A stretch of 50,031 nucleotides of DNA from positions 1-50,031 of the forward strand of contig JADYYH010000107.1 of NCBI GenBank assembly GCA_020853775.1. The letters run 5' to 3'. This document shows, piece after piece, positions 11,498 to 12,232 of the stretch. Both the position numbers and the translations under genes were made by a program. This DNA is from Nitrospira sp. GTDB taxonomy: Bacteria > Nitrospirota > Nitrospiria > Nitrospirales > Nitrospiraceae. The notes below the pieces were generated by a model that worked only from the letters and a program-made list of their open reading frames with translations, did no database searches and was not told the DNA's origin. Every line of letters begins with the position of its first letter. The first letter of the stretch is position 1.

Positions 11498-11536
11498 AAA
11501 AAAAACGCCGGGGGCAAGTGGCCTTACCCCCGGCGT
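11498..11536 (-). terminator. Rho-independent terminator
   Basis: A perfect 10-bp stem (ACGCCGGGGG with CCCCCGGCGT, loop 12) is followed on the minus strand by eight T. It lies 18 bp after the stop of the Lys/Ala micro-ORF. On the plus strand the same stem has no T tract but may also slow lpxC transcripts arriving from the other side. Confidence 0.85.
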
Positions 11537-11553
11537 GCAAATCCTGGCAGGAC

Positions 11554-11610
11554 TTACTTCTTCTTCGCTGCCTTCTTCGCTGGTTTCTTCGCTGCCTTCT
11601 TCGTTGCCAA
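11554..11610 (-). CDS. 18-residue Lys/Ala-rich histone H1-like micro-protein
   Basis: A TTG codon at 11610 is preceded by an almost full anti-Shine-Dalgarno complement (GGGAGGTGA) at normal spacing. It opens an 18-codon frame, MATKKAAKKPAKKAAKKK, ending in TAA. The repeats resemble the KAAKK tails of bacterial histone H1-like and AlgP/HupB-type proteins, which bind DNA or RNA by charge. The frame lies 52 bp after the HARE-HTH gene and is followed at once by a strong terminator, so it appears to be the last gene of that unit. It is too short for most gene finders. Expression is unproven. Confidence 0.6.
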   Translation of the reverse strand: MATKKAAKKPAKKAAKKK

Positions 11611-11662
11611 GACTCTCACCTCCCTTCACACATTAAAGTTGATATGAACTTCCTCGGCCCAC

Positions 11663-12175
11663 TTACACTACCGCGGTCAATTCCTGCTGTGTCGTGACTG
11701 CAAACGTATTGGGTCCGACTTTTTGGAAACGCTTATCGCGCTTCAATGACGTCGCCACGGAGGTCAGCGGCGTCTTCCCCTTGATCTGCAATCCTCCCTC
11801 GAGCAAACGCTGCAACAATTCTTTCGCATGCATCGGCCGGCTGGCTTCCTTGAGAATCTGGTAGGCGGCTTCAGGCACGCTCTTGCCCACATACTTACTT
11901 TTTCCAAGCAAAATCTCGCGCGACTGGTCCGTGACATCCGTCACCGGAAGCGGGCGAACACCTTTTTCGTCGGTGATAATCTGACTGGAGAGGCTGGCCA
12001 GCTTGGCCTTATCTGCTTCCACACGATAGAGCGTTTCAGCAAGTTCCAGATACTTCTTGATCATTGCGATTTCATCGTCGAGCCGACGTCGCTTCTTCTC
12101 AAGTTCCTGGTAGCGATTCCGGTAGGCGCTGATCCGTTGCTCCAGCCCTACCAGGATGTCGGTCAATTCTTCCAC
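11663..12175 (-). CDS. HARE-HTH domain protein with N-terminal coiled coil
   Basis: An open frame reaches 12286, but a consensus promoter (12204-12232) lies inside that extension, so the real start is the GTG at 12175, with GAGGA 7 bases before it. The 170-residue product has a charged coiled coil (residues 5-60, EQRISAYRNRYQELEKKRRRLDDE) and a C-terminal HARE-HTH/winged-helix (about 105-165: SVPEAAYQILKEASRPMHAKELL, then LTSVATSLKRDKRFQKVGPNTFAV). HARE-HTH domains occur in RNA polymerase delta, restriction enzymes and eukaryotic chromatin factors and are thought to bind DNA. The neighbouring H1-like peptide fits a nucleoid or transcription role. Confidence 0.75.
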   Translation of the reverse strand: MEELTDILVGLEQRISAYRNRYQELEKKRRRLDDEIAMIKKYLELAETLYRVEADKAKLASLSSQIITDEKGVRPLPVTDVTDQSREILLGKSKYVGKSVPEAAYQILKEASRPMHAKELLQRLLEGGLQIKGKTPLTSVATSLKRDKRFQKVGPNTFAVTTQQELTAVV

Positions 12176-12190
12176 AAGCAAGTCCTCAAT

Positions 12191-12215
12191 AAAGCATACT
12201 TGCTTTATAGCAAGT
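12191..12215. promoter_or_regulatory. Overlapping palindromes on the HARE-HTH promoter
   Basis: ACTTGCTTTATAGCAAGT (12198-12215) has perfect 7-bp arms around the -10 box. AAAGCATACTTGCTTT (12191-12206) has 6-bp arms over the transcription start. A repressor bound here would block the promoter; autoregulation by the HARE-HTH protein is one possibility. Confidence 0.55.
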
Positions 12216-12232
12216 GATTTAAAATCTGTCAA
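12204..12232 (-). promoter_or_regulatory. Consensus sigma-70 promoter of the HARE-HTH gene
   Basis: The minus strand reads TTGACA (12232-12227), a 17-bp spacer and TATAAA (12209-12204). Transcription would start near 12197, about 22 bases before the GTG at 12175, which rules out the upstream ATG at 12286. Confidence 0.8.

Follow-up and report, generated by a model that had tools for sequence, protein, structure and literature searches.

What does an 18-residue basic peptide, encoded directly behind a HARE-HTH gene, do in Nitrospira, the main nitrite oxidisers? The original prediction, made on a 50,031-nt stretch of one Nitrospira genome (the window), was that the peptide is a detached basic tail and makes up, jointly with the HARE-HTH protein, a two-part nucleoid factor. 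An answer depends on whether the short frame is a gene, on whether it needs its neighbour, and on what its composition and history suggest about its role.

A short frame at the end of a compact unit

The unit lies wholly on the minus strand, spanning 12232 to 11498 from the −35 box to the T-run (Table 1), between a divergent suhB-like gene and the convergent lpxC. Promoter, HARE-HTH gene, 52-nt gap, 18-codon frame, Shine-Dalgarno site and terminator are all present as first described, the gap between the HARE-HTH stop and the peptide's TTG start being exactly 52 nt in the window; the first description gave this layout accurately, but lacked the strand and the TTG start. Conservation of the promoter spans 28 species in the genus. 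It is possible that the inverted repeat over its −10 box is an operator, and we list it as a candidate. GCAAG motifs recur at the promoter of relatives, in part even at loci without HARE-HTH. The source genome comprises 4.25 Mb in 121 contigs, and 28 genus-mates entered the set of relatives; the matches with names are Nitrospira species, among them Candidatus N. defluvii (FP929003, L091) and also N. moscoviensis (CP011801, L137).

Table 1. Positions of the features of the unit within the window
Feature	Position	Strand	Remarks
Promoter TTGACA-17-TATAAA	12204..12232	−	matches 11 of 12 sigma-70 consensus positions; spacer 17 nt
−35 box TTGACA	12232-12227	−
−10 box TATAAA	12209-12204	−
Inverted repeat ACTTGC-TATAAA-GCAAGT	12198..12215	−	spans the −10 box; identity 0.93-1.0 in the genus
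HARE-HTH gene	11663..12175	−	GTG start; 170 aa; PF05066 match
Shine-Dalgarno site GGGAGGTGA of the peptide ORF	11616..11624	−	column identity 0.98 in the genus
18-codon peptide ORF, MATKKAAKKPAKKAAKKK	11554..11610	−	TTG start; 9 Lys; conserved ORF
Hairpin	11505..11536	−	14-pair stem; compensatory changes
T-run after the hairpin	11498..11504	−	makes the hairpin an intrinsic terminator at the window locus

Half of the 18 residues of MATKKAAKKPAKKAAKKK are lysine, giving a charge of about +8.5 at pH 7, and the 12-mer form found in relatives, MATKKAAKKKKK, carries about +6.5. The peptide thus has the K/A/P-rich, low-complexity and highly charged character of H1-tail-like basic proteins. Among ORFs of 10-40 codons in the 50-kb window it is the only one with at least 45% lysine; 20 mononucleotide shuffles of the window yielded no such K-rich ORF, and the reversed sequence yielded one, without a Shine-Dalgarno site. 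In the whole 4.2-Mb genome there are just 37 cases of a GGAGGTGA placed 4-7 nt ahead of a start. Its standing as the sole K-rich ORF and these controls argue that the peptide ORF is not a product of chance, and its order-wide conservation decides the matter.

TTG usually weakens initiation. A GTG inside the Shine-Dalgarno site was considered as the start and rejected: in L026-L028 and L031 it is out of frame, and TTG is in frame there. Phylum-wide, the Shine-Dalgarno site takes the form AAGGAGGTGA or AAGGGGGTGA and is kept with a start codon a few nucleotides downstream. The frame does not have the position of a regulatory leader or uORF, being the last ORF before the hairpin, with convergent lpxC as the next gene. 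A literature search found no paper on such peptides in Nitrospira.

Conservation within the genus is nearly complete. Counting the window, 28 loci of the genus were compared, and in every one ORF, Shine-Dalgarno site and hairpin follow HARE-HTH at 51-56 nt (in L020 a contig end truncates the hairpin); the sole residue change over these loci is one Ala to Thr. More widely, a K-rich ORF accompanies 128 of 131 distinct HARE coding sequences, the other three loci being interrupted by N runs (L036, L038) or a contig end (L107). The HARE-peptide pair expected in relatives by the original prediction was indeed found at every HARE-bearing locus with readable downstream DNA, 130 distinct loci that all hold a co-directional K-rich ORF, and Shine-Dalgarno site and hairpin are conserved with the peptide as foreseen. 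A HARE gene without the peptide, the finding that would have told against the original prediction, was looked for among these loci and not seen; the reverse loss is repeated.

The substitutions themselves speak for a protein. As many as 25 different DNA sequences specify one and the same 12-mer, MATKKAAKKKKK, and two 12-mer sequences differ on average by 0.60, 0.53 and 3.63 at codon positions 1, 2 and 3 (all distinct 12-mers), which argues clearly for protein-level selection on the peptide ORF. Third-position-biased substitution, frame-preserving indels, and a conserved start and Shine-Dalgarno site also make translation of the ORF a strongly supported prediction. Within the window's genus there is a further constraint, on RNA or codon choice. 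Among Lys/Ala/Pro/Thr codons, synonymous variation is seen in 39 of 39 for HARE and 3 of 17 for the peptide (Fisher p 1e-10), and third-position identity is 0.61 in HARE versus 0.94 in the peptide, with 0.98 for the Shine-Dalgarno site; past the hairpin, identity of the non-coding DNA in the 28 genus species is mostly 0.31-0.52. These frozen synonymous sites could reflect codons optimised for heavy translation or a role at the RNA level.

The winged-helix neighbour and its replacement

The neighbour is a HARE-HTH protein by profile (PF05066, 52.8 bits against a cut-off of 25.9, over residues 102-163 of 172), and it consists of a coiled-coil part followed by the HARE-HTH domain. In the AlphaFold2 model (mean pLDDT 80; about 82-89 over residues 101-160) a long N-terminal helix (2-70) precedes a C-terminal winged helix. 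Foldseek's top matches are RNAP delta (8x6g_E), the Rok DNA-binding domain (5zuz) and Zalpha, with probabilities of 0.99-1.0 but E > 0.001, so they support the fold class only; model and matches together place the protein in the winged-helix fold. A PDB sequence search with the protein returned coiled-coil matches only. RNA polymerase delta (RpoE) and the Rok DNA-binding domain would thus share the modelled fold of the neighbour. Delta consists of an N-terminal HARE-HTH domain and an acidic tail, whereas the Nitrospira protein carries HARE at the C terminus, after the 70-residue helix; the domain order is reversed, and the delta model TIGR04567 (NCBIfam) scores 15.9 bits, below its cut-off of 42. 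The Nitrospira protein is most likely a transcription factor. It may control the operon to which it belongs by binding the inverted repeat at the −10 box.

The relatives do not bear out an obligate pair. Twelve genomes without an intact HARE-HTH gene retain peptide, Shine-Dalgarno site and hairpin in the suhB-lpxC slot. Intact HARE-HTH is missing from G029, G197, G225 and G374, all of genus g2, in which G336 and G402 still have the gene; it is also missing from G230, G278, G333, G187 and G360 (fragments in the last two), the gene is broken in G293, and it has a central deletion in G043 and G051. Because G029, G225 and G278 are single-contig assemblies, binning gaps cannot explain the absence there. 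On the lpxC tree, HARE presence needs eight changes, at least five of them forced by well-supported (starred) branches: HARE-HTH has been lost or broken independently at least five times with the peptide retained. Upstream of the peptide, seven of the 12 loci lacking intact HARE have a promoter-like site 227-559 nt from the Shine-Dalgarno site, of which five read TTGACW-17-TATAAA, that of G293 reads TTGACA-17-TACAAT, and that of G278 is weak (9 of 12 positions). In G228 (L261) the peptide gene has been relocated and adjoins neither HARE nor lpxC. The L261 peptide has 20 residues and an ATG start, and a different hairpin follows it.

Other families of the phylum have an lpxC-convergent peptide gene (13-127 aa) with AAGGNGGTGA behind an unrelated upstream gene. 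One such partner combines a winged helix of the ArsR type (HTH_5, 25.4 bits) with a second domain that we read as nucleotidyltransferase-like; the other is a helical protein with no Pfam match, which we read as HEPN-like. Partner genes of these two kinds precede the peptide in L243-L262, and possibly represent a housekeeping relative of MNT/HEPN modules. A fused form of the peptide was also sought and the idea rejected: a Lys-rich C-terminal tail occurs in 0 of 110 distinct HARE proteins. From the HARE losses, the missing fusions and the partner swaps, we propose that what endures at the locus is the peptide, and that the winged-helix gene beside it can be replaced.

Length, copy number and the transcript end

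The peptide varies in length. Across families and classes it has 11, 12, 16, 18, 27, 29, 35-71, 80, 113 or 127 residues, the shortest form in this order being MAKKKAAKKKK (11 residues), and length changes by whole codons through repeat gain or loss. At this one syntenic slot, Nitrospira-type genomes encode 11-18 aa, sister families 27-71, and other classes as many as 80-127. The likeness to H1 tails seen in the original prediction is borne out by these longer forms: homologues with 40-127 aa are H1-like K/A/P proteins of the usual kind, one of which matches Pfam HC2 at E 7e-8, below the cut-off. When lpxC flanks were picked irrespective of the peptide, nine of 19 carried the peptide ORF and 10 none, though these flanks are drawn from the better-scoring part of the lpxC list and 9/19 is no estimate of frequency in the phylum, whose sample is partial and contains many metagenome assemblies.

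Tandem K-rich mini-ORFs, each with its own full Shine-Dalgarno site, occur in L043 (two), L248 (two) and L265 (three), and these copies point to a dosage role. L255 also has two or three tandem mini-ORF copies with their own Shine-Dalgarno sites. In two members of family f3 (L039, L041) a second K/A-rich gene, with the same Shine-Dalgarno site and TTG start, lies some 470-500 nt beyond the HARE stop. In family f21 and some class members the peptide's Shine-Dalgarno site lies inside the HARE 3′ end. The TTG start is found about 10-20 nt past the HARE stop in L203-L208, L193, L196 and L197 (L206 is an exception, at 89 nt); because the ORF nearly abuts HARE in these loci, the Shine-Dalgarno site must sit in the last HARE codons.

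The hairpin is a terminator in the window. A stem of at least nine pairs is present in 128 of 137 related regions, but a T4 run follows it directly in only 42 of the 137, and elsewhere the main role of the hairpin may be to stabilise the 3′ end or to act as a barrier in both directions between the unit and convergent lpxC. Compensatory changes support 12 of 19 predicted pairs, nearly all of them within the hairpin, and a covariation check of the related regions gave no convincing RNA structure outside it; pairing of the Shine-Dalgarno site with the pyrimidines after the stop was rejected (four weak pairs, some broken in several sequences). The loop AAGGCCACTT occurs once in each of three Nitrospira genomes scanned, so the hairpin is locus-specific, and the idea of a common terminator was discarded. 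An Rfam search found nothing above threshold at the locus, a RAGATH-23 match being rejected as sub-threshold (19 of 92.6 bits).

A proposed free-standing polycation and its alternatives

We propose that the peptide is a free-standing, very short, H1-tail-like Lys/Ala polycation and that the upstream winged-helix gene is dispensable for its retention, a reading to which we give an even chance. The consensus promoter would yield a shared transcript of winged-helix gene and peptide ORF, closed by the hairpin, and the peptide would be translated from its near-perfect Shine-Dalgarno site. Its action would then rest on charge: it would bind DNA or RNA irrespective of sequence, and this may compact the nucleoid or supply counter-ions, roles that have been proposed for Hc2/Hc1, AlgP and H1 tails. 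By analogy with Hc2, AlgP or H1 tails, such DNA or RNA binding is our leading suggestion. A dose-dependent polycation fits better than a sequence-specific factor, given that the peptide is kept despite neighbour decay, tolerates a ten-fold range of length, keeps its K/A composition, and occurs in tandem copies with Shine-Dalgarno sites. Points against the proposal are the TTG start, the frozen synonymous sites within the genus and the lack of the ORF in 10 of the 19 lpxC flanks. More tentatively, at somewhat less than even chance, it may belong to a Nitrospirota-wide family of free, mini-protamine-like peptides, abundant polycations on chromosome or RNA that have no folded partner.

Known systems offer partial parallels. 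Chlamydial Hc2 (HctB, Pfam HC2) and Bordetella BpH1 are likewise Lys/Ala-rich, low-complexity and basic, and Hc2, a precedent for K/A/P-rich nucleic-acid binding, varies in repeat number, shifting its length by in-frame repeat gain and loss (PMC2848022), as the Nitrospirota series does. Hc2 is far longer, at 165-237 aa against 11-18 aa, and comes from a different locus and taxon; with the HC2 model (PF07382, Pfam cut-off 40), the longer relatives score 11.8 and 33.2 bits, the latter for a 68-aa phylum relative, and others give no match. The C-terminal KPAA domains of AlgP/AlgR3 and PhaF in Pseudomonas have H1-CTD-like K/P/A repeats, as in the peptide; these attach to DNA and have links to polyP or PHA granules (PMC9239181). 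In those proteins, however, the tail shares one chain with a folded domain, whereas the Nitrospira peptide has a gene to itself, preceded by a strong Shine-Dalgarno site.

The free-standing polycation has to be weighed against four alternatives. That the target is instead a non-DNA polyanion, such as polyphosphate granules, ribosomes or rRNA, or another acidic partner, we consider unlikely. Small basic peptides are known in ribosomes, and even the 12-mer's charge of about +6.5 is able to bind any polyanion. Moreover, AlgP, whose KPAA sequence is H1-like, is located on polyP granules and determines how far apart they lie (PMC9239181); against this, the locus has no specific link to a ppk or ribosomal gene. 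The two-part factor of the original prediction has on its side the strict co-occurrence and order at 130 of 130 readable intact-HARE loci, the placement of the Shine-Dalgarno site within the HARE 3′ end in f21 and some class members, which suggests coupled translation, and the different winged helix that occupies the same place in other classes. It now seems distinctly unlikely: HARE is absent or broken in 12 peptide-keeping genomes through at least five losses, none of the 110 HARE proteins bears the fused tail, and elsewhere in the phylum the partner has been swapped for unrelated families.

It is quite improbable, in our judgement, that the RNA matters and not the peptide, the transcript end with its Shine-Dalgarno site, Lys codons and hairpin serving as an sRNA or a translation-controlled 3′ element. 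Synonymous freezing within the genus would suit such an element, as would the hairpin with its compensatory changes and a loop unique to the locus in three Nitrospira genomes, and the frequent absence of the T-run indicates that the hairpin is not a terminator alone. Yet changes across the family fall at third positions and length shifts by whole codons, the hairpin sequence differs in other families with the peptide type retained, and neither an Rfam match nor convincing structure beyond the hairpin was found. Versions of 27-71 aa at the same slot in sister families could also mean that the 11-18-mer is a decaying remnant of a longer H1-like gene. This we hold to be very improbable, and conservation strongly disfavours it: Shine-Dalgarno site, start and coding sequence are near-invariant in 28 species while the flank beyond the hairpin is mostly at 0.31-0.52, the pattern of substitution points to protein-level selection, and the peptide is retained where the neighbouring gene decays.

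The peptide gene is present across Nitrospira and widely in the phylum, and is unannotated. If it is translated, as selection implies, then bacteria conserve here a gene no longer than 11-18 codons, with a product that amounts to scarcely more than an H1 basic tail, and an H1-like tail would be seen to function as a separate gene product; if the proposed free-standing role is true, it would rank among the shortest conserved free-standing bacterial genes, overlooked as annotation ignores such short ORFs. The locus shows how annotation cut-offs hide ancient genes. Not only do the loci without HARE-HTH provide natural knock-outs of the neighbouring regulator, the length series from 11 to 127 aa also provides a system for asking how much charge is needed.
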